Positions 1-26,462 of a DNA stretch of 26,750 nt are shown piece by piece. Location: the IMG/VR virus record IMGVR_UViG_3300036814_000873, positions 1-26,750 of that record. The stretch is one strand, 5' to 3'. The notes below the pieces were generated by a model that did not search any database, was not told where the DNA came from, and worked only from the letters and a program-made list of their open reading frames with translations. The position numbers were made by a program, and so were the translations under genes. This DNA is from a virus. The first letter of the stretch is position 1. Every line of letters begins with the position of its first letter.

Positions 1-288
1 GAGTGGCTCAAGGAGGAGCGTCATGCACTCAGCAAAAAGATGATGGGACAGCTTCAGGCAGCAGTGCGAGACCCGGCGCCTACGCCACGTCCAAAATCTG
101 ATGGAAAAATTTCAAGCGGGATCACGAACACAGGGATGGGTTTCCAGATGTGGCGGGATTCCGAAGGACGCGACTATGCGTATTTTCCAGACCACCCAAT
201 CAACGATCAGATCAAGCAGCGTGGTTCTGGTTTTGAAAAATCTCCAGACGAAGGGAGGAAATTTGGGCGAGCTTTCCGAGATGGTTGA
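1..288 (+). CDS. Hypothetical protein, 5' end outside window
   Basis: The reading frame is open from the first base of the window to a TGA at 286-288, giving 95 visible residues. The N-terminal stretch before the first ATG (EWLKEERHALSKK) is charged and helix-like, so the gene most likely begins to the left and the ATGs at 40 and 43 are internal. The middle is Pro- and Gly-rich and holds an aromatic cluster (GMGFQMWRDSEGRDYAYFP). The C-terminus is rich in charged residues and Gly. I recognise no family. Its 3' end overlaps the start of the next small gene. The position, upstream of recombination genes in a T7-like phage, suggests a replication or early-region accessory protein, but this is inference from context only. 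An alternative start at ATG 40 cannot be excluded, because an AAGGAGGAG lies at 10-18. Confidence 0.6.
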   Translation, partial: EWLKEERHALSKKMMGQLQAAVRDPAPTPRPKSDGKISSGITNTGMGFQMWRDSEGRDYAYFPDHPINDQIKQRGSGFEKSPDEGRKFGRAFRDG

Positions 289-496
289 GGCACTCAAGCA
301 GAACACAGAGCAGGTCAGGAAGCTCAACGAACTACTGGCTCCAGAACTCAAGCGCAGCGAGATCTTGCGGGATTCACGGAAGCGTCAGGAAATCCTGCGT
401 GACTGCATCAGTTCAGACTTGGCGAGGATTCGAGCAGATGATGCCAAACGATGTCCCCCGCTTTCGGCGGAGAGCGGGGACCAGTATCGCTCGTAG
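263..496 (+). CDS. Small hypothetical charged helical protein
   Basis: The product is about 77 residues if it starts at TTG 263, or 71 residues from ATG 281. I prefer TTG 263 because AGGGAGG at 252-258 sits just 5' of it, whereas ATG 281 has no Shine-Dalgarno at a usable distance. Leu and charged residues alternate over the first 55 residues (EMVEALKQNTEQVRKLNELL), typical of a long amphipathic helix or short coiled coil. The C-terminus is Cys/Pro-containing and looks unstructured. No family is recognised. It overlaps the end of the preceding gene. Its last codons also encode the first of three hairpins, and its TAG stop (494-496) lies within the second. Confidence 0.5.
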   Translation: MGELSEMVEALKQNTEQVRKLNELLAPELKRSEILRDSRKRQEILRDCISSDLARIRADDAKRCPPLSAESGDQYRS

Positions 497-907: not shown

Positions 908-1017
908 CTTTGATCGACTGCCTCGCAAAGGATCAGTGCCAGGGGAAACTAAAGAAAAAACGCTCGTGGTGGATAAAACTGCTGAAGCGCAGGAGGACCG
1001 ATGGCACACGCCTCTGA
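904..1017 (+). CDS. 37-residue basic, Trp-containing microprotein
   Basis: The frame runs from ATG 904 to TGA 1015-1017. It has the clearest ribosome binding site of the region, AAGGAGGG at 891-898, five bases from the ATG. The start overlaps the stop of the upstream gene (ATGA) and the stop lies past the recE start at 1001, so the three are probably coupled. The second half is strongly basic with adjacent tryptophans (KLKKKRSWWIKLLKRRR), which suits nucleic-acid or membrane-surface binding. Two cysteines lie at positions 6 and 12. There is no recognised family. It could be a helper of the RecE/RecT pair or an early host-takeover peptide; both are inference from position. A competing frame (834-1022) lacks a ribosome binding site and is judged a shadow. 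Confidence 0.55.
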   Translation: MTLIDCLAKDQCQGKLKKKRSWWIKLLKRRRTDGTRL

Positions 1018-1843
1018 CCTGAAAAAACCGTGGTTTGAAATCATCGAAGGCATGTCCAACGAGGACTACCATGCACACCACGGGATCGGGAAATCTGGAC
1101 TCGACCGAGTTCGCAGGAGCATTGCACACTACCAGCAGCGACCAACCGCGACACCGTCTGCACCGATGATCGAGGGCAGCGCGTTTCACTGCCGTGTGCT
1201 TGAACCAGAACACTGGGGAACGAGGTACGCGGTTGCTCCAGATCTGGATCGGCGCACCAAAGCAGGGAAGGCCGCGTGGGCAGAGTGCCAGGAAGAATCC
1301 AAAGGTTTGACCGTCTTGACCCCAGAGCAGGACGCCCGGATTGAGAAGATGACGCAGGCAATCGACAGACACCCCGTCTGGGAGAGCATCGGCTGGGGAG
1401 GTGGAGATGTTGAGGTCTCGGTCTTCTGGGAGGAGTTGCTCTACTCCCAAGCTGTCACCTGCAAGGCGCGTCCGGATTTTGTTTCTGCGGACAAGAACAT
1501 CCTTGTGGATCTGAAATCAACTAGAGACGCAAGTCCAGAAGCCTTTGCAAAGTCGGTTGCAAACTTCAGATACCATATCCAAGCAGCGTGGTATTTACGC
1601 GGCTGGCGTGCTGCAACGCAGATTGATGCCGACTTTGTCTTCCTTGCCGTTGAGTCGTCTCCGCCTCACGAAGTAGCGTGTTACACGCTAGGAGAAGCAG
1701 AGCTGGCAGAAGGCTGGATGCAGGCGATGGATAGTTTGATAAAATTCGCAGCATGGAAGTCTGGGGAGCTTAAAGTCACTGGCTATCCTGCTGAAATTCA
1801 ACAGCTGAATCTTCCTCGTTGGGCGTTTCAGGAGTGTAAATAA
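1001..1843 (+). CDS. recE: RecE-like exonuclease (PD-(D/E)XK, exodeoxyribonuclease VIII type)
   Basis: The 280-residue product resembles the nuclease domain of RecE/exodeoxyribonuclease VIII, which degrades the 5' strand of double-stranded DNA ends to expose 3' single strands for annealing. Visible signatures are the N-terminal motif with Ser32 and the conserved GSAFHCRVLEP (59-69, His63), Glu138 in a strand, Asp159 in KARPDF, Asp170-x-Lys172 in VDLKST, and the following helix with Gln194 and Tyr198 (YHIQAAWY). The length fits a stand-alone phage RecE domain. The start at ATG 1001 has AGGAGG at 991-996. The next gene is RecT, its usual partner, after a 56-base gap with a tandem repeat and a leader motif. 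In T7 the end-processing role belongs to gp6, a different nuclease fold, so this looks like a functional replacement. Confidence 0.85.
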   Translation: MAHASDLKKPWFEIIEGMSNEDYHAHHGIGKSGLDRVRRSIAHYQQRPTATPSAPMIEGSAFHCRVLEPEHWGTRYAVAPDLDRRTKAGKAAWAECQEESKGLTVLTPEQDARIEKMTQAIDRHPVWESIGWGGGDVEVSVFWEELLYSQAVTCKARPDFVSADKNILVDLKSTRDASPEAFAKSVANFRYHIQAAWYLRGWRAATQIDADFVFLAVESSPPHEVACYTLGEAELAEGWMQAMDSLIKFAAWKSGELKVTGYPAEIQQLNLPRWAFQECK

Positions 1844-1863
1844 CTGTGAGTCAACTGTGAGTC
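1842..1863 (+). repeat. Tandem 11-base repeat at the recE stop
   Basis: AACTGTGAGTC occurs twice without a gap (1842-1852 and 1853-1863). The first copy contains the last two bases of the recE TAA stop. Its position 36 bases upstream of recT suggests a possible operator or promoter component. Confidence 0.8.
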
Positions 1864-1874
1864 ATGGGTTCTAA

Positions 1875-1887
1875 ACAACCAAACTAA
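1875..1887 (+). promoter_or_regulatory. 13-base leader element, copy 2, upstream of recT
   Basis: ACAACCAAACTAA is identical to bases 552-564. It is followed by ACAGGAG, which supplies the RecT ribosome binding site. The two copies stand at nearly the same distance from their start codons, which argues for a shared regulatory or leader function. Confidence 0.4.
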
Positions 1888-1899
1888 ACAGGAGAAAAT

Positions 1900-2961
1900 A
1901 TGAGTGGTGAACTTACGAAAGGCGGATTGTCGGATCTGCTGCTGCGGATGCAACCGCAGATGAAAATGGCTCTGCCGGTACATGTGACCGCTGCACAAAT
2001 CCAGCGGGTGGTCCTCACGGAAGTCAGCAAGAATCCATCGATCCTCAGATGTACGCAGACGAGCGTGTTGACGAGCGTGATGGAAGCGTGCCAACTCGGG
2101 TTGGTTCCGAATTCGACGCAAGGACTGGCTTATCTCGTCCCTTATGGCACGCGCTGCCAACTGATTCCGGGTTTTAGAGGATTGATCAAACTTGCGCTCC
2201 AGAGTGGGAAGGTTTCCAAGATCTGGGCGAAGGTTGTCCACGAGAAGGATCACCTCGAGTACGAGGAAGGACTGATTCCCAAACTCAAACACACACCCTA
2301 TCTCGGAGGAGATCCAGGGATGTTCGTTGGAGCCTACGCAATTGCAAAGATGATCAACGATCCGGATCCACAGTTCGAGTACATGGGGAAGACTGCAATT
2401 GACACGATCCGCAGGAAGTCTGCGTCTGGAGGCAAGGGTCCGTGGGCTGATAATTACGAGGAGATGGCTAAGAAAACCGTGATCCGTAACCTCACGAAGC
2501 GCCTTCCCCTCGAGAGTGACCGTGTCACTATCGCAGCAGAGAAGGTCGAAGGAGGGATGTCCGGAATGGAGTACGATCTCGAGGTCAAGGATTTTGTCTA
2601 TGTCGATGGAGATGACGACGTCCAGGATACTGCTGCTGCTCGCATCAATGCAGACATTGAGAAATCTGTGAAACTCAAAAAGGGAAAACCTGGGCCAAAA
2701 CCAAAAGCACTGCTTGAGGTTGAGTCAAAGGGAGCGACCAAGTCGAATCTCTCTGGATTAGAGCTGGCACTGGAACAACTCAAAAGCAAACCGCAGGAGG
2801 ATCTCAGAGATTTTTATATCCACAACGAAGTCCACTGGATGAACGAGCTGGGTCCAGATGCAATGGCAGAAATCGATGAGGTCTACAGCTCCAGACTTGA
2901 AGAACAGCAACTTGTCCAAGCTGACGTGCAGGGGGATGCTGAGAGCATCCCTGCGTCTTGA
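1900..2961 (+). CDS. recT: RecT-family single-strand annealing protein
   Basis: The 353-residue product matches the RecT family, which coats single-stranded DNA made by RecE and anneals or inserts it at homologous sequence. The core spans about residues 10-210. It opens with helical stretches (LLLRMQPQMKMALPVHVT), then SVLTSVMEACQLGLVPN (55-71), then the hallmark AYLVPYGTRCQLIPGFRGLI (77-96), and ends with the Lys/Arg-rich ADNYEEMAKKTVIRNLTKRL stretch. The C-terminal third is charged, low in complexity (KKGKPGPKPK) and acidic towards the end, as in many annealing proteins. CAGGAG at 1889-1894 supports the start. No single-stranded-DNA-binding gp2.5 homologue is visible in the window, so this may cover that role in recombination. 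The gene ends in a strong hairpin just before the RNA polymerase region. Confidence 0.92.
   Translation: MSGELTKGGLSDLLLRMQPQMKMALPVHVTAAQIQRVVLTEVSKNPSILRCTQTSVLTSVMEACQLGLVPNSTQGLAYLVPYGTRCQLIPGFRGLIKLALQSGKVSKIWAKVVHEKDHLEYEEGLIPKLKHTPYLGGDPGMFVGAYAIAKMINDPDPQFEYMGKTAIDTIRRKSASGGKGPWADNYEEMAKKTVIRNLTKRLPLESDRVTIAAEKVEGGMSGMEYDLEVKDFVYVDGDDDVQDTAAARINADIEKSVKLKKGKPGPKPKALLEVESKGATKSNLSGLELALEQLKSKPQEDLRDFYIHNEVHWMNELGPDAMAEIDEVYSSRLEEQQLVQADVQGDAESIPAS
2928..2954 (+). terminator. Strong hairpin at the 3' end of recT
   Basis: GGGATGCT (2933-2940) pairs with AGCATCCC (2944-2951) around the loop GAG. The stem continues as GCA (2928-2930)/TGC (2952-2954) past a two-G bulge. It lies inside the last codons of recT and is not followed by a T-run, so it may slow or process transcripts rather than end them. 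An RNase III site or phage-polymerase terminator is possible. Confidence 0.4.
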
Positions 2962-2962
2962 C

Positions 2963-3133
2963 ATGGGAATAACCCGCTCGTCCATGCTCGCCAATCCTCG
3001 TCGCAGGAGTTATTTGCGGCAAAAAGTGGTGGGTAACCAATACGTCTGTCGTCTCGGTCTTGTTTCTCCGCAGGCGGCAATCCCGAAGGCTACGGTGGCG
3101 AGCGGGTCTACTGATTCTCAAACTGGTCTATGA
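2963..3133 (+). CDS. Possible 56-residue protein between recT and RNA polymerase
   Basis: The frame begins at ATG 2963, one base after the recT TGA, and ends with TGA 3131-3133 overlapping the RNA polymerase ATG at 3130. Tight joins at both ends match the coupling seen across this genome, and RNA polymerase has no Shine-Dalgarno of its own, so translation through this frame would explain its initiation. The product is basic (NPRRRSYLRQK) with a Ser/Thr-rich tail and no recognised family. Against it, there is no clear ribosome binding site, and Ala codons lack the strong GCA preference of the neighbours. The region may instead be a structured untranslated leader: ACCCGCTCG (2972-2980) is complementary to CGAGCGGGT (3099-3107). 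Confidence 0.4.
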   Translation: MGITRSSMLANPRRRSYLRQKVVGNQYVCRLGLVSPQAAIPKATVASGSTDSQTGL

Positions 3134-5583
3134 ACAACTACTCAAAGAAACTTGAACAGCAGCAACTTGAGTTGAAGGCACACCGCGAGTCGTTTGCACG
3201 GTTGGTGAAAACCGTTGAGCGTAACGAGCGCGGCGGGAGGGCGTCAATCTCTCCGCATTCGAGGAAACTGATGGCAGAAGCTGTGCGTGTGGTTGCAGAT
3301 GAGATTTCTATCCGGAAACATGCCAGGGTTGGGCAACCACTGAAGCAGTATCGTTTCCTCGAACACCACGGCGTCCTGCCGAAGGAGGCTGCTTATCTCT
3401 GCGTCAAAACTGCAATTGATCTCCTCAGTGTGAGGACAAGTGGACGGGAGCAAGGACATGCAGTCCTCTGCCGTAAAATCGGGGGTTTGGTCGAGGATCA
3501 TGCTCGCATGTTGAGTTTCAAACGGCAGGAAGCATCGCTGCTACACTACGCGAAAGCTGCTCTCGGAAAGCTGAGTTCTCCCGGACGTGCCCGTCGTCGC
3601 AAACACTACCTTGCAGCAGAGAAAGCAGCAGGTCTTGCGTGGAAGGCGTGGCCTCTGAAACAAAAACAGGATCTTGGATTGTTCTTGATGCACTGCTTCA
3701 GGATTCGCACAGGTTTGGTAGACTTTCCGCTGCTGTTTCGCTATGGGAAGTCCTACAAGGTGACACAACTGACGGAGGGGGCTACGGCATGGATGATGGA
3801 GTTGCTCAAGGAAGAGGCTCAACATTGCTCCATCACCCCTCCTTGTGTCGCGCTGCCGAGAAAATGGGAGGGAGTTTTCGGTGGGGGGTATCACACGGAG
3901 GCACTCAGGTTTCCTGCAATTGCCCTGCACTCTTCTAAGTTCCTCAAAGATGCAGATGCCGTCAAACAGAGTGCAGAGTTCGATTGTCTCAATGTCTTGC
4001 AGGCAACTCGGTGGAGCGTCAACAGCCAAATCTCTGCGTTCATTCAGCAACTGCTGGAGGATGGAGTCGAGATCGCAGGAATTCCAGGTCCAGAAAAACC
4101 AGTTCCAGAGTATCCGTTTCCAGAAAAGATTCCAACTTCTGACCTGACTGAGGCACAAGCAGAGGTACTGCGACAGTATCGCTCGGCTGCACGGGGTATC
4201 CACGAATCCAACTCTGATAACCGCTCGATCCGCCTGCACTTGATCCGTTGTCTGCAAGCATGTCGCGAATTCTCTTCAAAAAAATTCTCCTACGTTTACT
4301 ATTCGGACTTCAGGGGCAGGAAGTACAACGCCTATTCGCCGCTTTCTCCGCAGGGTCCAGACTTCTCGCGAGCATCTCTCCAGTTCGCTACTGCCCTACC
4401 AGTTGACAACGACGAAGCCGAGTTGATGCTGGCATCCCACGGTGCTGCTATGCATGGGCACGACAAAGTCTCTTTGCAGGATCGTTTGGTGTGGGTCAGA
4501 GAGAACGAAGATCGAATTGTGAGATGCTCAGAGGATCCCCTCTCGGAAATGTGGTGGAGCGAGGCAGACAAGCCCTTCCAGTTCCTTGCATTTGCACACG
4601 ACTGGTCAGGGTATCTCAAAGCAGGACGTGGATACGAGTCGCGGCTGCCGGTGCAGATGGACGGAAGTAACAACGGACTCCAACACTTCAGTGCGCTGAT
4701 GCTCGACCCTGTTGGTGCAGGACTCACCAATCTGACCCCGTTTCCAACTCCACAGGACGTCTACCAGGCAGTCGCAGACAAGGTGCAGACCCTCGTACAG
4801 GAAGACGCAGCAGCAGGAGATCTCATGGCAAGCGGTTGGCTCGACTGGGGGATCACAAGAAAACTTGTCAAACGTCCAGTGATGATTCTGCCCTACGGAG
4901 GAACCCCGTCTGCGATGCGACGATACGTCTGCGAGGTGATCGAGGATGGACTCTCTGCCGGAAAACCCTACCCGTGGATTACCAATAAACCACGACCAGA
5001 CGGGTGGCGGGAGGCAGGCTATCTTGCAGCAAAGATCAACTTGGCAATTGGGTCAGTGATGCGCTGTGCGAATGACGTGATGGACTGGGTGAGGGGAGCA
5101 GCACGCACCTATGCTTCAGCACAACTCCCCCTGACTTGGGAGACTCCCTCGGGTTTCCGGGTTGCACAGAACTACCTCAAAGTCTCCTCACGAGTGTCCC
5201 AAACTATTCTGGACGGCAGCCTCGTTTCCCTGCGCTATCCGGAGGAGACAGACGAGATCATGTCACGACGTGCAGTCCAAGGATCCTCGCCAAATTACAT
5301 CCACTCCCTGGATGCTGCACATCTCACGCACACGGTGCTGGCTGCTCAGGAGAGAGGAATCTCAGACATGATGGTGATCCACGACTGCTTTGCAGTCCAT
5401 GCAACACATGCTGCTGCGCTCTCAACGATACTCAGGGAGCAGTTCGTGGATCTCCACACCCCACATCGGCTGCAAGAACTCAAGATGCAGTTTGAGAGAT
5501 ATGGGCCCACACTTCCTGATGTCCCAGAACGTGGAGATTTGGATATCTCAAGCGTACTCGACTCTGAATACCTGTTTGCATGA
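3130..5583 (+). CDS. T7-type single-subunit DNA-directed RNA polymerase
   Basis: The 817-residue enzyme (T7: 883) transcribes the phage late genes from phage-specific promoters. Key motifs are all present. YYSDFRGRKYNAYSPLSPQG lies near residues 390-410. Asp511 in MDGSNNGLQHFSALM corresponds to catalytic Asp537 of T7. Lys581 and Tyr589 in KLVKRPVMILPYG match Lys631 and Tyr639. Asp752 in VIHDCF matches Asp812. The protein ends in ...YLFA, close to the T7 ...FAFA carboxyl end that sits near the active site. The N-terminal promoter-binding part is less conserved. No Shine-Dalgarno precedes ATG 3130, which overlaps the stop of an upstream small frame (ATGA), and the gene overlaps the endonuclease gene at its own end. 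Lying between recombination and structural genes is the phiKMV-like rather than the T7 arrangement. Confidence 0.97.
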   Translation: MNNYSKKLEQQQLELKAHRESFARLVKTVERNERGGRASISPHSRKLMAEAVRVVADEISIRKHARVGQPLKQYRFLEHHGVLPKEAAYLCVKTAIDLLSVRTSGREQGHAVLCRKIGGLVEDHARMLSFKRQEASLLHYAKAALGKLSSPGRARRRKHYLAAEKAAGLAWKAWPLKQKQDLGLFLMHCFRIRTGLVDFPLLFRYGKSYKVTQLTEGATAWMMELLKEEAQHCSITPPCVALPRKWEGVFGGGYHTEALRFPAIALHSSKFLKDADAVKQSAEFDCLNVLQATRWSVNSQISAFIQQLLEDGVEIAGIPGPEKPVPEYPFPEKIPTSDLTEAQAEVLRQYRSAARGIHESNSDNRSIRLHLIRCLQACREFSSKKFSYVYYSDFRGRKYNAYSPLSPQGPDFSRASLQFATALPVDNDEAELMLASHGAAMHGHDKVSLQDRLVWVRENEDRIVRCSEDPLSEMWWSEADKPFQFLAFAHDWSGYLKAGRGYESRLPVQMDGSNNGLQHFSALMLDPVGAGLTNLTPFPTPQDVYQAVADKVQTLVQEDAAAGDLMASGWLDWGITRKLVKRPVMILPYGGTPSAMRRYVCEVIEDGLSAGKPYPWITNKPRPDGWREAGYLAAKINLAIGSVMRCANDVMDWVRGAARTYASAQLPLTWETPSGFRVAQNYLKVSSRVSQTILDGSLVSLRYPEETDEIMSRRAVQGSSPNYIHSLDAAHLTHTVLAAQERGISDMMVIHDCFAVHATHAAALSTILREQFVDLHTPHRLQELKMQFERYGPTLPDVPERGDLDISSVLDSEYLFA

Positions 5584-5909
5584 AACCAAGATTCGTTCCA
5601 AAAACAGAGGGCATGAACCGACTGGAGGCAGAGTATGCCCAGTTGCTTGGCCTGCTCAAACATGGAGGAGACATCCTCGACTGGCGCTATGAACCAATCA
5701 AACTGAGACTTGCACACACCACGTTCTACACACCAGATTTTCTTGTGATCCAAGCAGACGGATTTGAGTTCCATGAAACAAAAGGTTTTATGAGGGATGA
5801 TGCCGCAGTCAAACTCAAGGTTGCTGCACAACTCTATCCGTGGTTCACCTTTGTTCTTGTCCAAAAATCCAAATCAGGATTCAGTTACAAAACCATCAAA
5901 ACTGCATGA
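5580..5909 (+). CDS. PD-(D/E)XK endonuclease in the T7 gene 3 (endonuclease I) position
   Basis: The 109-residue protein has the elements of a PD-(D/E)XK nuclease: acidic Glu16/Glu18 in the first helix, ProAsp at 52-53 (FYTPDFLV), and Glu66-x-Lys68 (FHETKGF). T7 endonuclease I, which cleaves Holliday junctions and branched DNA, uses Glu20, Asp55, Glu65 and Lys67, a very similar spacing. The sequence also resembles small phage nucleases of the DUF1064 type. The following segment (DDAAVKLKVAAQLYPWFTFVLV) fits the usual helix and strand that complete the fold. Its place directly before the lysozyme gene copies the T7 gene 3-3.5 order. ATG 5580 overlaps the RNA polymerase stop, without its own ribosome binding site. 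The likely role is resolving recombination intermediates and, as in T7, degrading host DNA; substrate choice is inference. Confidence 0.75.
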   Translation: MKPRFVPKTEGMNRLEAEYAQLLGLLKHGGDILDWRYEPIKLRLAHTTFYTPDFLVIQADGFEFHETKGFMRDDAAVKLKVAAQLYPWFTFVLVQKSKSGFSYKTIKTA

Positions 5910-6415
5910 CTACAAAATTCGAGCATGGCCCAAACTGGAAAGAGCGCGAGCAGACCAACCTCATTGTGATCCACTCCTCACTGACTCCTGCAACAAGAGA
6001 CGACGGCATCGAATACCTGCGCTCCCGGCACATGCGGCAAGGCTGCATCGAGGTTGGCTACCACTTTGTCATCCGGCGTAACGGGGTGATCGAACAAGGA
6101 CGTCCGCTCCATGCAACCGGCAGCCACTGCGGGGATCGTGATTTTGACAGCATCGGCATCTGCATGATTGGAGGAGGCGACAACAAACATAAGGCAAAAG
6201 GTCCAGACTACACCTCTGCACAGATGCGAACCTTAGCCTACGTCTGTCTCACACTGATCAGAATCTATCCTGAAGCAGAAGTCGTTGGACACAACCGCAC
6301 CACCCCTTCAACTCGCTGCCCGGTTTTTAACGTCGCAGACTGGTGGGTTGAACTTTCTCTTAATCTTAAAACACTGAATCATGCAGAACATCCTTACAAT
6401 TTTCCTTTAAAATAA
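5906..6415 (+). CDS. T7-type lysozyme, N-acetylmuramoyl-L-alanine amidase
   Basis: The 169-residue product aligns throughout with T7 gp3.5 (151 residues), a zinc amidase that cuts the bond between muramic acid and L-alanine and in T7 also binds and inhibits RNA polymerase. The zinc ligands are His23 (IVIHSS), His129 (VVGHN) and Cys138 (TRCPVF). Tyr52 in VGYHFVIRRNG corresponds to T7 Tyr46. The SIGICMIGG stretch is also diagnostic. The T7 active-site lysine before the cysteine is not obvious here, since the loop reads TTPSTRCP and is one residue longer. The start is set at ATG 5906, which overlaps the endonuclease stop (ATGA); an upstream ATG at 5840 would lie inside that gene. Proximity to the polymerase gene fits possible regulation of it, which is inferred. 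The C-terminal tail (about 148-169) extends beyond T7. Confidence 0.93.
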   Translation: MTTKFEHGPNWKEREQTNLIVIHSSLTPATRDDGIEYLRSRHMRQGCIEVGYHFVIRRNGVIEQGRPLHATGSHCGDRDFDSIGICMIGGGDNKHKAKGPDYTSAQMRTLAYVCLTLIRIYPEAEVVGHNRTTPSTRCPVFNVADWWVELSLNLKTLNHAEHPYNFPLK

Positions 6416-6642: not shown

Positions 6643-6987
6643 ATGGGAGTGGAAACTTACGCGGCAATCGCAGCAATCTCTGCGCTTTATGGTGCAAAAA
6701 CGCAAGCGGACTCGGCTTACGATCAACAGAAAAATGCAGACGATGTAGCATATAAGCAGAAACAACAAATAGCTGCTCAGAACGCACGGAACGCAGAGCA
6801 GGATGTGCTGGCACGCAACGAAATGGAAGCAGGACTGGAGGACGAGTCTGGAGGACCGCGTCTCAGGTCTGTAGCACAGGGGCAGGGAGGCAGGCGCGTC
6901 CGCAGGGACACCCTCACTCAAAAAGGTTTGGGAATCCCCACACAGGGCAAGCAAGGACTGCAAACAGGCTATGCCGGAAATGTCTGA
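6643..6987 (+). CDS. Small virion-associated protein in the T7 gene 7.3 position
   Basis: This 114-residue protein is encoded directly before the portal gene, where T7 has gp7.3, a small virion protein needed for tail function and adsorption. The N-terminus is Ala-rich and hydrophobic (YAAIAAISALYGA). A long Gln/Ala/Asn-rich helix follows (about 20-65). The C-terminal part is basic and Gly-rich (QGQGGRRVRRDTLTQKGLG) with the low complexity seen in gp7.3-like proteins. Sequence identity to gp7.3 is not evident, so the assignment rests on position and composition. AAGGAG at 6631-6636 supports ATG 6643. The end overlaps the portal start by 17 bases. Confidence 0.55.
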   Translation: MGVETYAAIAAISALYGAKTQADSAYDQQKNADDVAYKQKQQIAAQNARNAEQDVLARNEMEAGLEDESGGPRLRSVAQGQGGRRVRRDTLTQKGLGIPTQGKQGLQTGYAGNV

Positions 6988-8587
6988 CTCCCGGAGCGCA
7001 AAGGACCGCTACGAACACGCAACCGCAGAGAGACTTCCCTACCTGACTCGGGCAAGGAAATGTGCGGAACTCACCATTCCGTCACTCTACCCGCAAGAGG
7101 GTGCGACCTCGTCAACCACCTTCCCAACTCCTTACCAAAGCCTTGGCGCACGGGGGGTGAACCACCTCTCTGCAAAGCTTCTCCTCACCCTGCTGCCGCC
7201 TAATGCCCCCTTCTTCCGGCTGGCAATGGATTCTTCGACACGAGCTGAGGTGGCTCCTGACTCGACCAAAGGGGACGTGGACCTTGCAATGTCTCGTGCA
7301 GAGAAAGCGATCATGCGAGAGATCGACTCTGCTGCAACACGGGTGCAGGCATTTGAAGCAATTAAACACCTCATCGTCTCTGGGAATGTCCTGATCTGCT
7401 GGCCGGATCCTGCAAAGGGCAGGGTGCGTGTCTATCCGCTGGATCGATACGTTGTCCTCCGGGATTTCGAGGGGGCAGTGCAGGACATCATCATCAAGGA
7501 AACGGTTTCTCCACTGATGCTTCCGGAGCGTGCTAGATCCTTGATTGCACAGGACAAGAATAAGACGTCTGACTCTGAGCGTGAGATTGACATCTACACA
7601 TGCGTCCGCAGAGGAGAGCAAGGGTGGACGGTGTTCCAGGAAATCGAAGACCAGATGGTTCCAGGGTCTCAGGGAGTCTATCCCAATGACCGGACCCTCC
7701 CGTGGCTGCCGCTGATTTTTGATTCTGTTGATGGCTCAGACTACGGACGCGGACACATCGAGCAGTACTACGGAGATCTCAGAAGTTTGGAGACTCTGAC
7801 TCAGGCTATTGTCGAGGGATCTGCTGCCGCAGCACGAGTGCTGTTTCTTGTGACTCCAAATGGATTCACGTCTGAGCAGGATCTTGCAGAGACTCCAAAT
7901 GGTGGTATCATCACAGGAAACGAGCAGGATGTTGGCGTCCTTCAGATGCAAAAACACAATGATTTCAGTGTTGCAAAGGATACAATCGCCAGCATCACAG
8001 AGAGACTCTCCTACTCATTTCTTCTCAACTCTGCAATCCGCAGGGATGCAGAACGAGTCACCGCAGAGGAGATCCGCTACATGGCACAGGAACTCGAAAG
8101 TTCTCTTGGCGGAGTCTACTCCTTGCTTTCAAACAGTTTCCAGTTGCCACTTGTGAGGATCATCCTCGACAAACTCGAGGCAAAAGGAGAACTCCCGCCG
8201 ATGCCAGCGGAGATGGTGCAGCCACAGATCGTCACTGGACTCGAAGGTTTGGGACGTGGAGACGACCTCAATCGACTCTCAGAGTTCTTGCAGGATATCC
8301 AACTGCTCTCCCAGGCAGAGGGGATCAGGGCTGAGATGAATGTTGGCGAGATCATCAATCGACTCGGCGCTGCACGCGGAATTGAAATCCACGGACTGGT
8401 CAAGTCAGACGAGGAGAAAGCACAGGAGCAGGAAGCAGCACAAAAGCAAATGAAGGAGCAGCAGTTCCATGAACTCCTCAAAACCGCTAGTCCTGAGATC
8501 ATCAAACAGTTTGGACCCATGTTCATGGGTGGGCAGCAGCAGCAGCAGCAGCAGCCTGGTGGTCCTCCAACTCTCAATCAAGGATAA
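6971..8587 (+). CDS. Portal protein (head-tail connector, T7 gp8-like)
   Basis: The 538-residue product matches T7-type portal proteins (T7 gp8: 536). Twelve copies form the ring at one head vertex through which DNA is packaged and ejected. Recognisable parts are the N-terminal RYEHATAERLPYLTRARKCA, then GARGVNHLSAKLLLTLLPPN (about 57-77), the FEAIKHLIVSGNVLICWPD block (about 124-142), and RDAERVTAEEIRYMAQELES (about 358-377), which is typical of the family. The C-terminus carries seven consecutive glutamines (522-528) encoded only by CAG, then a Gly/Pro tail. ATG 6971 overlaps the preceding gene; ATG 6980 is an alternative start nine bases later. The scaffold gene follows after five bases. 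Confidence 0.95.
   Translation: MPEMSDSRSAKDRYEHATAERLPYLTRARKCAELTIPSLYPQEGATSSTTFPTPYQSLGARGVNHLSAKLLLTLLPPNAPFFRLAMDSSTRAEVAPDSTKGDVDLAMSRAEKAIMREIDSAATRVQAFEAIKHLIVSGNVLICWPDPAKGRVRVYPLDRYVVLRDFEGAVQDIIIKETVSPLMLPERARSLIAQDKNKTSDSEREIDIYTCVRRGEQGWTVFQEIEDQMVPGSQGVYPNDRTLPWLPLIFDSVDGSDYGRGHIEQYYGDLRSLETLTQAIVEGSAAAARVLFLVTPNGFTSEQDLAETPNGGIITGNEQDVGVLQMQKHNDFSVAKDTIASITERLSYSFLLNSAIRRDAERVTAEEIRYMAQELESSLGGVYSLLSNSFQLPLVRIILDKLEAKGELPPMPAEMVQPQIVTGLEGLGRGDDLNRLSEFLQDIQLLSQAEGIRAEMNVGEIINRLGAARGIEIHGLVKSDEEKAQEQEAAQKQMKEQQFHELLKTASPEIIKQFGPMFMGGQQQQQQQPGGPPTLNQG
8534..8554 (+). repeat. (CAG)7 microsatellite encoding polyglutamine in the portal
   Basis: Seven uninterrupted CAG codons encode Gln522-Gln528 near the portal C-terminus. 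Uninterrupted trinucleotide runs can change length by slippage while keeping the frame, so this tail may vary between relatives. Confidence 0.9.
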
Positions 8588-8592
8588 GTTAC

Positions 8593-9384
8593 ATGCCAGC
8601 AGTTGACACCCATGACGCGCCAGCACCTGAATCCCAGGAATACCTCGACGGGATGGCAGCAAAGACAGACGCGGAGCAAAGACTTCCAGAGGAAACCAAA
8701 GGATATCCAGAGACCAACGGAGAAGACCGACCGGAATGGTTGCCAGAAAAATTTAAGAGTGCAGAGGACATGGCAAAAGCCTACTCTTCGCTCGAGTCAA
8801 AGCTTGGATCCAAAACCTCTGATGAAGAAACACCAGCAGACCCCCAGCAGACCCCCTCTGTTGAAGAGGCGCAGGCAATGCTATCCGACAAGGGGTTGGA
8901 CTACTCAAAATATGAACGAGAGTTTGTCGATCAAGGTGGACTCTCAGAAGACAGTTTGAAAGAACTCACTGACCAAGGACTCTCGCGGGAGTTGGTCGAT
9001 GGGTTCGTTAAGGGCCAGCAAAGTCTGGTAGAACAATCGAGACGAGATGCATTCGACGTTGCAGGAGGAGAAGAGGAGTATGGTCAGATGATGGACTGGG
9101 CAACAAAAACCCTCAGCGAAACCGAAGTCGAGCAGTATAACTCGATGCTTGGAGTCAATGCAGAAAACAACCGTTTTGCAACCCGGTCCCTTGCCGCCCT
9201 CTGGCGTCAGGAGACTGGATTTGCTCCGTCTCTCATTCAAGGCCGAGGCAACCCCTCCCCTTCCGGGTATCAGTCGTGGGCACAGGTTTCCGAGGCAATG
9301 CGCGATCCAAGGTATCAGAATGACTCTGCATATCGAAGGAACGTGGAACAACGAGTGGGGCAAAGTTCGTCACTCGACAATTAA
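8593..9384 (+). CDS. Capsid assembly scaffolding protein (T7 gp9-like)
   Basis: The 263-residue acidic protein lies between portal and major capsid, the fixed place of the T7 scaffold, which guides procapsid assembly and then leaves the head. The first 90 residues are Pro/Glu/Asp-rich and probably disordered. WLPEKFKSAEDMAKAYSSLE (about 49-68) is a characteristic scaffold motif. The middle is helical and acidic (GGEEEYGQMMDWATKTLSE). The end is positively charged and contains the typical GYQSWAQVSEAMRDPRYQND segment (about 224-243), a likely capsid-binding region. AAGGAT at 8580-8585 precedes ATG 8593. Downstream lies a 128-base non-coding leader before the capsid gene. Confidence 0.9.
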   Translation: MPAVDTHDAPAPESQEYLDGMAAKTDAEQRLPEETKGYPETNGEDRPEWLPEKFKSAEDMAKAYSSLESKLGSKTSDEETPADPQQTPSVEEAQAMLSDKGLDYSKYEREFVDQGGLSEDSLKELTDQGLSRELVDGFVKGQQSLVEQSRRDAFDVAGGEEEYGQMMDWATKTLSETEVEQYNSMLGVNAENNRFATRSLAALWRQETGFAPSLIQGRGNPSPSGYQSWAQVSEAMRDPRYQNDSAYRRNVEQRVGQSSSLDN

Positions 9385-9408: not shown

Positions 9409-9472
9409 CACCGTTAGAATCCCCTGACCCGTTGCGGCGGACAATCTTGGGCGACTGAGTGTGAGAGCAAGG

Positions 9473-9512: not shown

Positions 9513-10493
9513 ATGACTACTGCTGTTCCCTCCCGAATGGGACAACTTAACGGGGCTGGCGTTGCACAAGTCCAGTTTCTAAAGGTTTTCGCAGGCGAGG
9601 TCTTGACCACGTTTGACGAAACCAATCTGATGAAACCCCTGCACATGACCCGGACTATTTCGTCTGGTAAAAGTGCATCATTTCCGGTGGTCGGCACTGC
9701 CGCCGCCGAGTATCATGTGCCCGGAGTCGAAATTCTGGGTGTAGCGCAAAAACACGCCGAGCAAGTCGTGGTGATTGATGGATTGCTGATCTCTCATGTC
9801 TTCATTTCCAATCTGGATGAGGCGATGAATCACTATGATGTCCGGGGTCCATACGCGCACAATCTTGGACAGGCACTTGCCAACAGGTTTGACAGGAACT
9901 GTCTGGTCCAAGCGTACAACGGTGGTTTTCAGACCACGACCATCACAAGTGGAAAGCCTGCTGCTGCGAATCAGATTGTTCTGGCGGCAGACACCGATGA
10001 CCTAGTTGGCGACACTCTTACTTCGCACATTATGACGATGGCGAGGATGATGGATCAAAATGACGTTCCGGCGAATGACCGCTACGTTGTATTTGACCCG
10101 ATTCAGTATTATAAGATTGTCGAAGGGACCAAGGCACTCAATCGCGATTGGGGTGGTTCTGGCTCGTTTGCAGAAGGAGAAGTGCTGCGGATTGCAGGGA
10201 TTAACGTCCTCAAATCCAATCACCTTCCGGCAGTGGCAAACGATACCGTAGCGGACACAGGGATCATTTCAGGAAACATCTATACCGGTGATTTCAGGAA
10301 GTTCCTTGCCGTTGGATTTCACAAATCCGCAATCGGAACCGTGCAGTTGATGGGTCTCAAGGTTGAGGCAGAGTATGACATCCGCAGGCAGGGTCATCTG
10401 ATGGTTGCAAAGTATGCTCTTGGTACAAAGTGGCTCCGTCCGGAGTCGTGCTACCAGATCAACTACGCGACCAACCAAGCAAGCCGCGCCTAA
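9513..10493 (+). CDS. Major capsid protein (T7 gp10A-like, HK97 fold)
   Basis: The 326-residue protein (T7 gp10A: 345) forms the icosahedral shell. Family features visible are the N-terminal FLKVFAGEVLTTFDETNLM (about 24-42), the SGKSASFPVVGTAAAEYHVPG stretch that resembles the E-loop region, the DRNCLVQAYNGG helix end, and MARMMDQNDVPANDRYVVFDP (about 176-196), which is highly typical of T7-like capsids. The C-terminus ends shortly after YALGTKWLRPESC. No slippery site or extended minor capsid form comparable to T7 gp10B was noticed. The gene has its own structured leader upstream and a strong hairpin downstream, as expected for the most abundant virion protein. Confidence 0.95.
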   Translation: MTTAVPSRMGQLNGAGVAQVQFLKVFAGEVLTTFDETNLMKPLHMTRTISSGKSASFPVVGTAAAEYHVPGVEILGVAQKHAEQVVVIDGLLISHVFISNLDEAMNHYDVRGPYAHNLGQALANRFDRNCLVQAYNGGFQTTTITSGKPAAANQIVLAADTDDLVGDTLTSHIMTMARMMDQNDVPANDRYVVFDPIQYYKIVEGTKALNRDWGGSGSFAEGEVLRIAGINVLKSNHLPAVANDTVADTGIISGNIYTGDFRKFLAVGFHKSAIGTVQLMGLKVEAEYDIRRQGHLMVAKYALGTKWLRPESCYQINYATNQASRA

Positions 10494-10504
10494 TCGGGCT
10501 TCAC

Positions 10505-10525
10505 GCGGGGGTGCAATGCCCCCGC
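10505..10525 (+). terminator. GC-rich terminator hairpin after the capsid gene
   Basis: GCGGGGG (10505-10511) pairs perfectly with CCCCCGC (10519-10525) around a seven-base loop, followed by ATCTCTTACTTT. T7 has its T-phi terminator at the same place, after gene 10. Partial readthrough would set the lower expression of the tail genes. Confidence 0.75.
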
Positions 10526-10550
10526 ATCTCTTACTTTACATTGGAGAATC

Positions 10551-11180
10551 ATGGCGATTCCACAGGTTACAAATCCAAAGCTGGAGGCAGTCAACATCAT
10601 GCTCTCTTGCATCGGAGAGTCTCCAGTGAACTCCTTGGTGTCTGGACTTGCGGATGCAGAGGCAGCAGAACTGATCCTCAACCGGGTCAGCAAGGAAGCT
10701 CAAACGGAGGGCTGGCATTTCAACACAAGGATCACTTACACCCTGCCGGTTGACGAAGCCAATCAAATCCCAGTTCCTGTGAACACCCTACGGCTCAATC
10801 TTGCAGACACCAGCAGGGGTTATCCTCTCACACAGCGCGGCAGTTTCATCTACGATTACGAGGAGAATTCCTACATCGTTGGAGTCAAGTATCCAACCGT
10901 CAAAGTGGACTTGGTGGAACAGCTTGGTTTCAATGAGGATGCTGCTGCACGAGAGGCAATTCCAGAATACATGCGGCGCTACATCTCAATTCGTGCTGCA
11001 CGAGTCTTCATCTCAAGACATCTTGGTTCAGAGAACATCTACGGATTCACGGAGAAGGACGAAGCCATTGCTCGCGGAGAGTTGAAACAAGCAGAATCCC
11101 GAGCGCAGCAGTTCTCCATCTTTGATCACCACACCAAGGGGGCTAACGCACTCTACACCTCCTACAACCGTCTCATCTGA
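10551..11180 (+). CDS. Tail tubular protein A (T7 gp11-like, tail adaptor)
   Basis: The 209-residue protein matches T7 gp11 (196), the ring that joins the portal to the nozzle. The N-terminal KLEAVNIMLSCIGESPVNSL (about 9-28) and the TEGWHFNTRITYTLPVD segment (about 52-68) are diagnostic. Later YMRRYISIRAARVFISRHLGS (about 141-161) forms the conserved helix, and the Ala/Glu-rich C-terminal helix follows. GGAGA at 10542-10546 supports the start at 10551. The gene ends immediately before the ATG of tail tube B, so the two are probably translated together. Confidence 0.93.
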   Translation: MAIPQVTNPKLEAVNIMLSCIGESPVNSLVSGLADAEAAELILNRVSKEAQTEGWHFNTRITYTLPVDEANQIPVPVNTLRLNLADTSRGYPLTQRGSFIYDYEENSYIVGVKYPTVKVDLVEQLGFNEDAAAREAIPEYMRRYISIRAARVFISRHLGSENIYGFTEKDEAIARGELKQAESRAQQFSIFDHHTKGANALYTSYNRLI

Positions 11181-14138
11181 ATGCCCTTCATCAGCGATTC
11201 GTGGCCCAATTTTGCAGATGGGATCTCACAGCAACCTGTGCTGTTGAGGACACCAACGCAGGGAGACGAGCAGATCAACGGATTGAGCGACCCCGCACTG
11301 GGATTGAGCAAACGTCCCTGCACGGAGCATCTTGCAAAAATCGGTGACTACGCAACCCCGAATCTCTTTGGAACCACCATCACACGGTCTGCAACTGAAG
11401 CGTACTTTCTCCTAATTGCAGCAAACTCGGTTCCAACCCTCAATGACACCACGTCCGGTGCAAGCGTAGCAGTCAACGTCACAGAGGCAACAGATCACGA
11501 GATCTTAACGATTACCTTCTCCACAACCACTGCAACTGTCACCACTGCATCGGCACATGGACTCAGCAGTTTAGACAAGGTGCAGATCAACAGTGCAGAA
11601 GTCACTGCCGGGACCAATACCTACAACGGACCTTTCACGATTACTTACACAGGAGCCACGACCTTCACCTACCCGATAGTAGAGCCTTCAGTTGCTGCAT
11701 CAGGAAGTCCAACCTTTGCACAGATTTTTGAATCCACAATGTCAGGGGCGGAACTGGTCTCCTACAACGCCATTGTTGATTACCTCAAGGTTGCAGACCC
11801 GCAGACCAATCTGAGATCCGTCAGCATCGCAGATGAAACCTACCTGCTCAACAAGTCCACCACTGTAGCAAAGACCACCACTCTCACAACGAACCGCGAC
11901 TACAAGGAAGGCGTAGTTCATGTCAAGGTTGGCGCATTTGGAACCACCTACACGATCACCCTTCAGGCCACTGATTTCGCGCACTCAACCTCAGAAAGCG
12001 GCACAGACGTCTCTGAGCTTGTAACCCGAAACACCGCAATCACAGACTCACTTGTCACGGCACTCAACAACGGAGTAGCGGCAACCTACAATCAGGATTC
12101 TAACCAAGAGACGAGCTTCAGCGCGACCTCTGGGGGTTCTGCCATCACCCCAACAATCACAGTCCGACACCGCAAAGGTGAGTCGGTGATCCACTTCAAG
12201 AGTGCAACTCTTACGGACACCTTCACTCTCGAGGGCAAAGACTCCAGGGATTACGGACACATGATGTCGTTCCAGGGATCAGTTGGAGACTTTGCAAAAC
12301 TTCCAACCAAGGGACCAACGACAATCGACGGCTGGGAGATCAAGGTTTCAGGAGATTTTGCCAAGGATCAGGATGACTACTATGTCAGTGCAGTCAGAAA
12401 CGCATCAACTGGAGAAGTGACCTACACTGAGTCTGCAAAGGATAACGAGAAGCATCAGTTCAACGCAACCACCCTGCCAAGACGTCTGGTCCGGAACTCG
12501 GATGGAAGTTACTCTCTCAAGGAAACGGCCTGGACTGCAAGAGTCTCTGGAGATGACACAACCAATCCGTATCCCAAGTTTGCAGGAAACACCATTGCAG
12601 ACATCTTCTATCACCAGTCCCGTCTAGGATTCCTCTCAGGAGAGACTCTGCATCTCTCAGAGACCAACGAATACGGTAATTTCTTTCTGACAACAGTCCT
12701 CACTCCACTTGCGACTGCTCCCATAGAACTGAGTAGTGCAGGTACAGAAATCTCAGTGTTGGAATACGCACTCCCGTACTCCGAATCTCTGTTGATGTTC
12801 TCAAAGCTCAACCAACCGGTGCTACGCGCTCCAGACGTCTTGACTGCAAGCTCTGCTGCACTCAGGATTTCAACGAGATTCGAGGCATCTCTGAAAGCAA
12901 AACCTGCATCCTCTGGAAGGTTCATCTTCTTTGCAGAAAAAAGAGGCTCGCACTGCGGGATCCGAGAGTACTTCACGGACTCGAACACGAATACAATGGA
13001 TGCTGCACAGATCACGATGCATGTTCCAAAGTACATTGCAGGAGAAGCAGTGCAACTCCTGGCATCCTCGAACTCCGATATCCTTTGTATCCGCACCGAC
13101 GATGCTGATTCTGAGGAAACCGTCTGGGTGTATCGATACACCTGGCTAGGAGCGCAGAAAGCACAGGCATCCTGGTCAAAGTGGACCTTCGATGGCAAGG
13201 TCAGGGCAATGGGATTCGTGGAGTCTGATCTCCTTCTCATTCTGGAGCGTGGATCCAAGAGTTATCTTGAACGTCTGCATCTTGGAAGGGATTCTGCTGC
13301 ATCTGAGAACGACATGTCCTCTGCAATGCATCTCGACCGGAGGGTGAAACTCACCAGTGACTCGTCCTTTGATACCTTCCACTCTTCCTACTATCAAGAC
13401 GCAGGCACTGGCGTGGCAGCTACTGTCACCAATTGTGTTTCTCTCACCAACGTCACAACCTGCACCACAACAGCAGCTCATGGAGTGATTGTAGGAAACG
13501 CAGTTACAATTGCAGGAAACTCGGTTGCTGCACACAACGCCACCCACCTTGTTACTGAGATTCCTTCCACCACCACCTTCAAGTACGCACTCACAACGGC
13601 AGACGCAACAGGAACAGGAGGAACTTCTACTCTTCAAAACTCAACCCTCATCTACATCGACAAAGCAGGAGACGCAAAGACTGCAACAGAGGTTGGGGCA
13701 CTCACTCTCTCAGCTTCAGTCCCAATCTGGGTGGGCATTCCCTACGAGTTTAAATACAGGATCTCAGAACCAGTGGTTCGTCTCAAACAAAACGAGGCAG
13801 CAACGACTTCAGGACGTATCCAACTCCGGACCATGAGTGTCAACTATGCAGACTCTGGATATTTCCGGGTGCAGATCAAACCCCAGGGGCACGATGTGAC
13901 TGTAGCTGGAGTCACCATGCGGGACGTTGCCACCCATACCTTCAATGGAAGAATCGTTGGAGCCGCAGCAAACGTAACCGATACCACTCCAATCCTCTCT
14001 GGAACCTTCCGATTCCCAGTGTACTCGATTTCAACTGGAGTCCAAGTGGAGATCACCTCCTCAGAGTGGATGCCCTGTTCGTTTCAAGGCGGAGAGTGGG
14101 AAGCACAGTATTACACAAGATCAGGAAGGATTAAGTAA
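11181..14138 (+). CDS. Tail tubular protein B (T7 gp12-like nozzle) with two inserted modules
   Basis: The 985-residue protein is the nozzle at the tip of the short tail (T7 gp12: 794). The N-terminus (SWPNFADGISQQPVLLRTPT, about 7-26) is the family signature, and the C-terminal strand-rich part ending in SFQGGEWEAQYYTRSGRIK is also typical. The extra length is largely due to two related inserts. One, at about residues 107-175, contains TVTTASAHGLSSLDKVQI and TTFTYPI. The other, at about 745-819, contains CTTTAAHGVIVGNAVTIAGN and TTFKYAL. Both look like a small Thr-rich beta module seen in many phage surface proteins. ATG 11181 directly follows the gp11 stop with no ribosome binding site. The stop shares one base with the next ATG (TAATG). 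Confidence 0.92.
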   Translation: MPFISDSWPNFADGISQQPVLLRTPTQGDEQINGLSDPALGLSKRPCTEHLAKIGDYATPNLFGTTITRSATEAYFLLIAANSVPTLNDTTSGASVAVNVTEATDHEILTITFSTTTATVTTASAHGLSSLDKVQINSAEVTAGTNTYNGPFTITYTGATTFTYPIVEPSVAASGSPTFAQIFESTMSGAELVSYNAIVDYLKVADPQTNLRSVSIADETYLLNKSTTVAKTTTLTTNRDYKEGVVHVKVGAFGTTYTITLQATDFAHSTSESGTDVSELVTRNTAITDSLVTALNNGVAATYNQDSNQETSFSATSGGSAITPTITVRHRKGESVIHFKSATLTDTFTLEGKDSRDYGHMMSFQGSVGDFAKLPTKGPTTIDGWEIKVSGDFAKDQDDYYVSAVRNASTGEVTYTESAKDNEKHQFNATTLPRRLVRNSDGSYSLKETAWTARVSGDDTTNPYPKFAGNTIADIFYHQSRLGFLSGETLHLSETNEYGNFFLTTVLTPLATAPIELSSAGTEISVLEYALPYSESLLMFSKLNQPVLRAPDVLTASSAALRISTRFEASLKAKPASSGRFIFFAEKRGSHCGIREYFTDSNTNTMDAAQITMHVPKYIAGEAVQLLASSNSDILCIRTDDADSEETVWVYRYTWLGAQKAQASWSKWTFDGKVRAMGFVESDLLLILERGSKSYLERLHLGRDSAASENDMSSAMHLDRRVKLTSDSSFDTFHSSYYQDAGTGVAATVTNCVSLTNVTTCTTTAAHGVIVGNAVTIAGNSVAAHNATHLVTEIPSTTTFKYALTTADATGTGGTSTLQNSTLIYIDKAGDAKTATEVGALTLSASVPIWVGIPYEFKYRISEPVVRLKQNEAATTSGRIQLRTMSVNYADSGYFRVQIKPQGHDVTVAGVTMRDVATHTFNGRIVGAAANVTDTTPILSGTFRFPVYSISTGVQVEITSSEWMPCSFQGGEWEAQYYTRSGRIK

Positions 14139-14866
14139 TGGGGATCGAGTCGGGCGGTAGCGGATACCTTGGAGCCGGTGTCGCAGGAGCGCAGGTTCTC
14201 GCTTCAGAGTATTCTTGGGCGTCGGCAAACCGGATTGCAGGAGAGCGCAAGAAACTGGAGATTGAGCAGATCAATGACCAGCGTGAGCGTGCAGGAAAAG
14301 ATGCAGCGCGTCGTTCAGAAGAAATGCAGATCCGCAGGGAGCAGGAACGTCAGATCACCGCAGCATCCTCTCTGGCACTTGTCAAGAAGGAGATGCAAGA
14401 ACAGGCAGCCGCAGAGGCATCCGCAGAATATCGAGGAGTCGAAGGAGGCTCTGTGGAGGCATTCAAACTCCAACTCACAAGAGAGAACCTTGCAGCAATG
14501 CAGCAAGTATCCGGCAACTTCAATGATCTCAAGAACCACATCTCCCAGATGATCTCAGATAACTGGAATTCCTTGGAGGACACCCGCGAGTCCCTCGATC
14601 TTGCAGAAGAGGTTGCAGAAATCAAACGGAAGGAGGCAGTGCCAGAGGTCGCAGTTCTGAGACTGGGACAGCTATCCTCGATCCTTCAGGGGGCAGCACA
14701 CGACTATAAGTACGGAACCCCGTGGTTTAGTGGGAAGGAAACGCCTTCGCTCGCGATTCCTAAACAAACTAAACCACCCTTGTCTAGGTTCACGCAAAAG
14801 CCAGCTCTTGGTTATTATGGGCAATATCGTTCTACAACATCACAAAACCTGAACAAACCTCACTGA
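14138..14866 (+). CDS. Internal virion protein, T7 gp14-like
   Basis: The 242-residue protein occupies the gp14 place (T7: 196). In T7, gp14 is stored in the head and ejected to form a pore in the outer membrane. The N-terminus is Gly/Ala-rich and moderately hydrophobic (GGSGYLGAGVAGAQVLASEY). A long charged helix follows (about 30-95), and the segment AEASAEYRGVEGGSVE (about 91-106) resembles the conserved gp14 motif. The last 50 residues are Pro/Lys/Gln-rich and differ in character from the rest. AAGGA just before the overlapping TAATG may serve as ribosome binding site. The stop overlaps the next start (TGATG). Confidence 0.8.
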   Translation: MGIESGGSGYLGAGVAGAQVLASEYSWASANRIAGERKKLEIEQINDQRERAGKDAARRSEEMQIRREQERQITAASSLALVKKEMQEQAAAEASAEYRGVEGGSVEAFKLQLTRENLAAMQQVSGNFNDLKNHISQMISDNWNSLEDTRESLDLAEEVAEIKRKEAVPEVAVLRLGQLSSILQGAAHDYKYGTPWFSGKETPSLAIPKQTKPPLSRFTQKPALGYYGQYRSTTSQNLNKPH

Positions 14867-19323: not shown

Positions 19324-19327
19324 ATAG

Positions 19328-26216: not shown

Positions 26217-26462
26217 ATGACCGCAAACGAAAAAGCGAATCACTTTCTTGGAGGATACTGGAAGTGCGAAGGCTGCGGATTACTGATTGAAGACACGCTT
26301 TATGTTTGTCCTGAGTGCAAGGCTAACAAGACTGAAAATGAGAATGTAGATAAACGGCTTGTTGCTCTTGGCCCGGACTTAGACTCATACATCGGAGTCA
26401 ACGGAATTACTTTAGATCAACAAGATGAGATGATTGCAGACCAAGGATACAAAGGTAAATGA
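26217..26462 (+). CDS. Small zinc-ribbon protein
   Basis: The 81-residue product has two CxxC knuckles, Cys17/Cys20 (CEGC) and Cys31/Cys34 (CPEC), ten residues apart. This is a compact zinc-ribbon or rubredoxin-like fold, with aromatic residues nearby (YWKCEGC, TLYVCPEC). The rest is acidic and has no recognised motif. Its function is unknown: a virion or fibre-assembly factor, a nucleic-acid-binding protein or a lysis-region accessory are all possible. The start at ATG 26217 has no strong ribosome binding site; the preceding 31 bases (26186-26216) hold no clear terminator. The end overlaps the next start (ATGATG). Confidence 0.75.
   Translation: MTANEKANHFLGGYWKCEGCGLLIEDTLYVCPECKANKTENENVDKRLVALGPDLDSYIGVNGITLDQQDEMIADQGYKGK

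Follow-up and report, generated by a model that had tools for sequence, protein, structure and literature searches.

The RecE–RecT–RNA polymerase locus and its relatives

The window analysed here, a stretch of 26,750 bases that makes up the entire IMG/VR record IMGVR_UViG_3300036814_000873, carries genes for a predicted RecE-type exonuclease and a predicted RecT-family single-strand annealing protein ahead of the gene for a T7-type single-subunit RNA polymerase (RNAP). The window genes described below, up to and including the tail fibre gene, are on the + strand. The window is assigned to the T7-like phages by its T7-type RNAP together with portal, capsid, and tail tubular protein genes in T7 order. 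The record is classed as linear and thus the window is probably a fragment. The early region upstream is missing from it; hence the upstream gene content was read from relatives.

The open reading frame (ORF) at 1001–1843 starts with ATG and encodes 280 amino acids. Its product matched Pfam DUF3799 (PDDEXK-like; 97 bits, cut-off 26) and PHROG 412, 'exonuclease VIII' (E 4.5e-76), and a six-member RecE profile matched the structure of the E. coli RecE nuclease domain (3H4R) over profile positions 20–279 (E 3.8e-44). The putative nuclease residues H63, D159, D170-x-K172, and Q194 (window numbering) do not vary across the six aligned rows. The co-directional ORF at 1900–2961, separated from the first by 56 bp, also starts with ATG, and its 353 amino acid product matched Pfam RecT (141 bits, cut-off 24), PHROG 148 (E 5e-73), and LiRecT (7UB2; E 3.7e-16). 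These profile matches confirmed the prediction of a RecE-type PD-(D/E)XK 5'–3' exonuclease and of RecT, respectively. A preliminary description of the sequence had proposed such a nuclease followed by RecT and standing before an RNAP gene, and this is borne out; no different nuclease family was indicated by the profiles. The RNAP gene occupies 3130–5583 (PHROG 414, E 1.2e-200; Pfam PF00940, RNA_pol, 330 bits), and its assignment is further based on the RNAP tree described below.

Searches of IMG/VR with the RNAP revealed 13 further contigs, whose RNAPs are 55–62% identical to that of the window over the aligned part. RNAP and capsid alignments did recover relatives, whereas a search of IMG/VR with the single RecT sequence found none. 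RecT is encoded shortly upstream of RNAP in eight of the 13 (L004–L008, L044, L045, and L046; RNAP identity 55–57%), RecE in the contigs that reach far enough (L004, L005, L007, L008, L044, and L046), and the end of RecE in L045. One gene separates RecE from RecT in L007, L044, and L046. The RecT-bearing contigs stem from separate metagenomes, and the RecE–RecT–RNAP order repeats in several independent contigs. Therefore, a chimeric assembly was rejected, and an assembly error or chance reading is excluded. The extra genes found around RecE and RecT encode ParB-like, helix-turn-helix (HTH), and HNH-like proteins (L046 7935–8762; L007 3610–4062 and 5265–5705; L005 1997–2434). The ParB-like gene lies between RecE and RecT in the records designated G001 and G002 (see below), the HTH protein is encoded in L007, and several members have an HNH-like ORF between RecT and RNAP.

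Upstream of RecE, a Cro-like HTH protein and a DnaD-like helicase loader are encoded in L004, L007, L008, L013, L044, and L046. The loader matched PHROG 2514 in G001 (E 2.9e-21), and PHROG 428 (E 2.9e-27) and Pfam Phg_2220_C in L007. A divergent XRE repressor is present in the members extending far enough upstream, and a tyrosine integrase (PF00589) or its end in L007, L013, and L046. The order in the relatives is integrase, divergent XRE repressor, Cro-like protein, DnaD-like loader, RecE, RecT, and T7-type RNAP, followed by a small endonuclease, an amidase, and T7-type head and tail genes; the terminase is of T7 type. A loader gene downstream of cro, as in these relatives, is characteristic of a lambda-like early region.

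G001 (42,704 bases) and G002 are the records behind L046 and L044, respectively, and their DNA is ~90% identical over most of the shared length. The order in G001 is fibres, T7-type TerL (PF22530, 134 bits), small early genes, integrase, repressor, loader, RecE, ParB-like protein, RecT, RNAP, and virion; terL lies outside the truncated window. The contig-end gap of G001 falls among fibre genes and is spanned by G002, in which it contains fibre and chaperone-like genes only. Thus, almost the whole set of genes is represented by G001 and G002 together.

The first 445 bases of the window matched the interval between loader and RecE in L004, L007, L008, and L013 by tblastx (E ~1e-20 to 1e-24), and the cut end of the window is therefore placed inside the same early operon. 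The 3' end of an early gene at 1–288 (95 codons inside the window; no Pfam or PHROG match) corresponds by synteny to the ORF after the loader gene in the same four contigs. The short early ORF at 285–500 is kept in every member reaching upstream, its product being 35–44% identical to those of ORFs of 60–74 amino acids in L004, L007, L008, L013, and G001. A hypothetical early protein of 130 amino acids, with no reliable match to a Pfam or PHROG family, is encoded at 515–907.

The combination of integrase, repressor, and attP-like site that marks temperate phages was found in the relatives, in the region outside the window. A degenerate tRNA-Lys(UUU) gene, the 3' half of which is intact, lies beside the integrase gene of the G001 record (L046 3062–3127, - strand). 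This 3' half would be attP-like, its position being that expected of attP and seen in many attP sites. ARAGORN does not call the tRNA, probably owing to the degenerate 5' half.

The T7-type replication module (gp5, gp4, gp6, and gp2.5) was not found in G001–G004 or in the part of the genome covered by the window. The DNA_pol_A and DnaB_C profiles had no match in G001–G004, and DnaB_C had none in the window; the controls, T7-like Pseudomonas phage LUZ100 and CRP-171, were positive. In tblastn searches with gp2.5, gp3, gp4, gp5, and gp6 of LUZ100 and CRP-171, the window, G001, G002, G003, and L007 gave no match, whereas the two controls matched each other and the LUZ100 RNAP and portal gave matches in the lineage. 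Among the non-structural ORFs of G001, none that is unassigned reaches polymerase size. The earlier suggestion that RecE/RecT took the place of gp6 and gp2.5 is thus supported, neither homologue having been found in the window or its near-complete relatives. However, replacement of the recombination genes alone would understate the exchange, which, judging by the relatives, involved the whole early block including the replication and lysogeny region.

The comparison set consisted of 43 T7-RNAP loci outside the lineage, taken from bacterial genomes and virus records, of which 35 extended 5 kb or more past the RNAP gene. At least two of gp2.5, gp3, gp4, gp5, and gp6 were present in 32 of these 35, and RecE or RecT in none of the 43. 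The three exceptions, L078, L084, and L085, are distant sequences: their T7-type RNAPs are very divergent, the contigs are assigned to Planctomycetota and Gammaproteobacteria, and few or no T7 replication genes are recognisable nearby. RecT was also not found in 15 other T7-like records searched whole. RecE, RecT, and a T7-type RNAP occur at one place in none of 50,697 phage records, a result compatible with RecE/RecT genes lying far from RNAP.

The absence of a DNA polymerase A match is in itself not unique, as several other T7-like records without it keep gp2.5, gp4, and gp6. No family-A DNA polymerase was matched in the T7-like records G006–G013 and G015 (L150, L156, L110, L119, L134, L145, L146, L159, and L127; 38–60 kb), and those inspected closely retain these three genes. 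G006 was considered as a T7-like record free of replication genes near the capsid gene and rejected, its gp2.5, gp3, gp4, and gp6 being located in an inverted block.

Probable origin and proposed operation of the early block

Gene content, gene order, family membership, and conserved motif residues were read directly from the sequence. They make it very probable that the window belongs to a temperate T7-like (autographivirus) lineage that exchanged its T7 replication and recombination genes for a lambda-like early block. It is also fairly likely that these phages depend on the host replisome and lambda-type recombination, that their RNAP has been rewired as a late-gene switch under repressor/Cro control, and that the T7 replication and transcription modules are separable in evolution.

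In a lysogen, the repressor would keep the early operon silent, and upon induction or in lytic infection the operon would be transcribed by the host RNAP. The DnaD-like loader would then recruit the host helicase to an origin, and the host polymerase and replisome would copy the DNA. RecE is expected to resect double-strand ends in the 5'–3' direction and RecT to anneal the resulting strands, and the small endonuclease (5580–5909) may resolve junctions. Recombination of this type would join genomes end to end into the concatemers required by the T7-type terminase. Finally, the phage RNAP, encoded by the last gene ahead of the late block, would transcribe the late genes. In lambda, Q acts as the late-gene switch; the place of the RNAP gene corresponds to that of Q, and the same job is proposed for it by analogy.

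Several points weigh against this interpretation. The integrase, repressor, and loader of the window's virus are predicted from relatives with RNAPs 55–57% identical and from the synteny of the first 445 bases, and the formation of concatemers by RecE/RecT is likewise putative. Multi-copy T7-type phage promoters were sought in the intergenic regions and none was recognised, so that the Q-like role of RNAP is based on analogy. No prophage of the lineage and no host were found in 84,980 species genomes, in which a narrow RNAP alignment matched nothing and a wider one only other T7-like lineages. The search for a host with the 3' half of the tRNA-Lys gene covered the genomes of two classes plus 18 individual genomes and also found nothing.

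It is unlikely that the virus is instead a lytic T7-like phage in which only the recombination genes were exchanged, RecE/RecT replacing gp6/gp2.5, with a T7 replisome elsewhere in the unseen genome. Distant replication genes would be compatible with the window taken alone, it being a fragment, and phiKMV-like phages do have their replication genes upstream of RNAP. However, where phiKMV-like phages have the replisome, the members reaching upstream have integrase, repressor, Cro-like protein, and DnaD-like loader, and it is with the loader–RecE interval of those members that window 1–445 is syntenic. Moreover, none of gp2.5, gp6, DNA polymerase, and helicase-primase was found in the full set of genes covered by G001 and G002.

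The RNAP tree groups the lineage as a single, fully supported clade on a long stem, nested in T7-like phages that have the T7 replisome. This position argues against the lambda-like block being the ancestral state of T7-like phages, from which the others departed by later acquisition of the T7 replisome, although the relevant deeper forks are weak (82–90 in the Shimodaira–Hasegawa-like approximate likelihood-ratio test) and the root is a midpoint root only. Such a history is quite improbable, even though the long stem and the many integrase-bearing T7-like lineages would fit it.

RecE is monophyletic in the lineage (support 100/99), and so is RecT (100/100). Their inner groups, i.e. the window, L044/L046, and L004–L008, agree with the RNAP tree. 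This congruence suggests a single acquisition of RecE/RecT in the common ancestor of the lineage. A phylogeny of both proteins had been called for in the preliminary description. The RecE tree has Synechococcus phage S-CBS1, together with viral contig L017, as the sister group of the lineage, in a clade including phages such as Edno5.

A part of RecE/RecT in mosaicism, besides concatemer formation, had been suggested as possible in the preliminary description; there are signs that gene exchange went on inside the lineage. L004 and L007 share 92% identity in RNAP and 97% in portal, as compared with 54% in RecE. The L044 capsid protein shows 89% identity with that of L007 and 75% with that of L046, whereas L044 and L046 share 97% identity in portal; apparently, the capsid gene was swapped between sub-lineages. 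The capsid genes compared start at 12256 in L044 and lie at 17043–18032 in L046 and 14285–15268 in L007.

That RecE/RecT are recent accessory cargo (a moron) beside RNAP and do no essential work is very improbable: the locus takes insertions (ParB-like, HTH, HNH-like) and its RecE varies as above, but RecT is present in every lineage member covering the place and RecE wherever covered, both follow the RNAP topology and conserve their motif residues, and no other T7-type exonuclease or annealing protein is present.

Late genes and candidate regulatory elements

The gene at 5580–5909, following RNAP, encodes the small endonuclease-like protein, which resembles Holliday junction resolvases of the TnsA/DUF1064 type (PHROG 190, E 2.4e-14; Pfam TnsA/DUF1064 below cut-off). 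It occupies the position of T7 gp3, yet the gp3 queries of LUZ100 and CRP-171 match nothing there. An N-acetylmuramoyl-L-alanine amidase of the T7 gp3.5-like lysozyme family is encoded at 5840–6415 (Pfam Amidase_2, 63 bits; PHROG 822, E 1.7e-43), the real start of which may be slightly downstream of 5840. In L004 (9217–11766) and L007 (9685–11778), an ORF of 697–849 amino acids with no known family lies between amidase and portal; it is not found in the window or G001.

The T7-type portal or head-tail connector (6971–8587; PHROG 449, E 1.4e-173; 49% identity with the LUZ100 portal) is followed by a scaffold or head assembly protein (8593–9384; PHROG 1052, E 9.9e-52) and the T7-type major capsid protein (9513–10493; PHROG 267, E 4e-77; 48% identity with LUZ100). 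The capsids of L099 and L101 are 65–73% identical to that of the window and their portals only 57%. Tail tubular proteins A (10551–11180; PHROG 446, E 6e-44) and B (11181–14138; PHROG 457, E 2e-180) and an internal virion protein (14138–14866; PHROG 805, E 1.6e-6) come next. Two very large proteins of 1485 and 1313 amino acids (14866–23269) are assigned by position and size to the place of the T7 internal core proteins gp15 and gp16; no PHROG matched them at 1e-5, and homologues of both are present at the equivalent place in G001–G003. The tail fibre gene (23270–26185) matched PHROGs 38058, 2710, and 13481. Like portal and capsid, the scaffold, tail tubular A and B, internal virion, and fibre proteins are of T7 type. 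Past it, at 26217–26462, a small protein with a rubredoxin-like zinc ribbon is encoded (weak Pfam match under the cut-off).

A conserved element consisting of TGACC, a small hairpin, and GAYAATC lies 5' of the capsid gene at 9425–9446 (+ strand) and was aligned in 14 members. The stem of ~4 bp has covarying sides and an NGNG loop; GAYAATC comes after it, and a larger hairpin follows. The element is also present in L004, L012, L044, L046, L091–L093, L095, and L096, with variants in L007, L097, L099, and L101, and there is a single copy per genome. A search of Rfam matched no family. The element may be a phage promoter or an mRNA leader. A G+C-rich hairpin between the capsid and tail tubular A genes (10494–10550 in the window) has equivalents in every aligned member; its position is that of the late terminator in T7.

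In the early region of L046 and L007, a TTGACA hexamer is located between the repressor and Cro-like genes. It is compatible with a host promoter, and a consensus scan of that stretch revealed no excess of promoter-like sites. An imperfect inverted repeat with 23-bp arms occurs at corresponding positions within the loader gene (L007 1511–1560; L004 1377–1424) and is a candidate origin or binding site. Iterons were also sought in the loader gene and were not convincing.

Comparison with known phages

T7-like phages are commonly regarded as carrying a fixed combination of phage RNAP, DNA polymerase, helicase-primase, and recombination proteins. The lineage described here would break this combination: virion, terminase, and RNAP stay, and lysogeny control, replication, and recombination are of lambda type, so that even the T7 replication core appears to be replaceable. 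Accordingly, it is unsafe to conclude from a T7-type RNAP or a T7-like capsid that a phage is lytic or encodes a replisome of its own. T7-type packaging of concatemers made by RecE/RecT, repressor control of a phage-encoded RNAP, and module transfer between T7-like and lambda-like phages become testable.

The adjacent order RecE then RecT is shared with temperate siphoviruses and prophages having the Rac/lambdoid-type pair (Edno5, Escherichia 673R7, and Bordetella IFTN3; RecE of S-CBS1), to whose RecE clade that of the lineage belongs. The lineage differs in combining the pair with a T7-type RNAP, a trio met at one place in none of the phage records searched. Two podoviruses with RecE, Acinetobacter phage Alexa and Paracoccus phage KLEP18-1, were rejected as relatives, no T7-type RNAP being annotated in them.

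In phiKMV-like phages (phiKMV, BUCT609, and NMeng1), RNAP is likewise encoded shortly ahead of the late structural genes, and in BUCT609 and NMeng1 it comes after the replication genes. Unlike the lineage, the latter two encode their own DNA polymerase, helicase, primase, and exonuclease, and have no RecE/RecT annotated.

Desulfovibrio phage ProddE, temperate by annotation, and Rhizobium phage Pasto resemble the lineage in having an integrase and a T7-type genome. In addition, ProddE encodes an antirepressor and a cI-type repressor in divergent orientation to RNAP, and Pasto has a tRNA near the integrase, like LUZ100 and G001. In contrast to the lineage, both phages encode a T7-type single-stranded DNA-binding protein, endonuclease I, primase/helicase, and DNA polymerase; ProddE has in addition a gp6-type exonuclease and no RecT.

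LUZ100 is a T7-like Pseudomonas phage with temperate features, and earlier temperate T7-like cases, including Pasto and pelagiphages, were reviewed together with it (PMC10134795). It shares with the lineage a T7-type RNAP (32% identity), portal (49%), and capsid (48%), a tyrosine integrase, and a tRNA by the integrase. However, LUZ100 keeps gp2.5, gp3, gp4, gp5, and gp6, has no RecE/RecT annotated, and has a MarR-like regulator in place of the divergent repressor/Cro pair. Neither RecE/RecT in an autographivirus nor loss of the whole T7 replisome was found in the literature searched, subscription papers being outside its scope. Thus, temperate T7-like phages are already established, and every one examined keeps T7 replication genes; the loss of the entire T7 replisome in the present lineage is, as far as could be searched, new.

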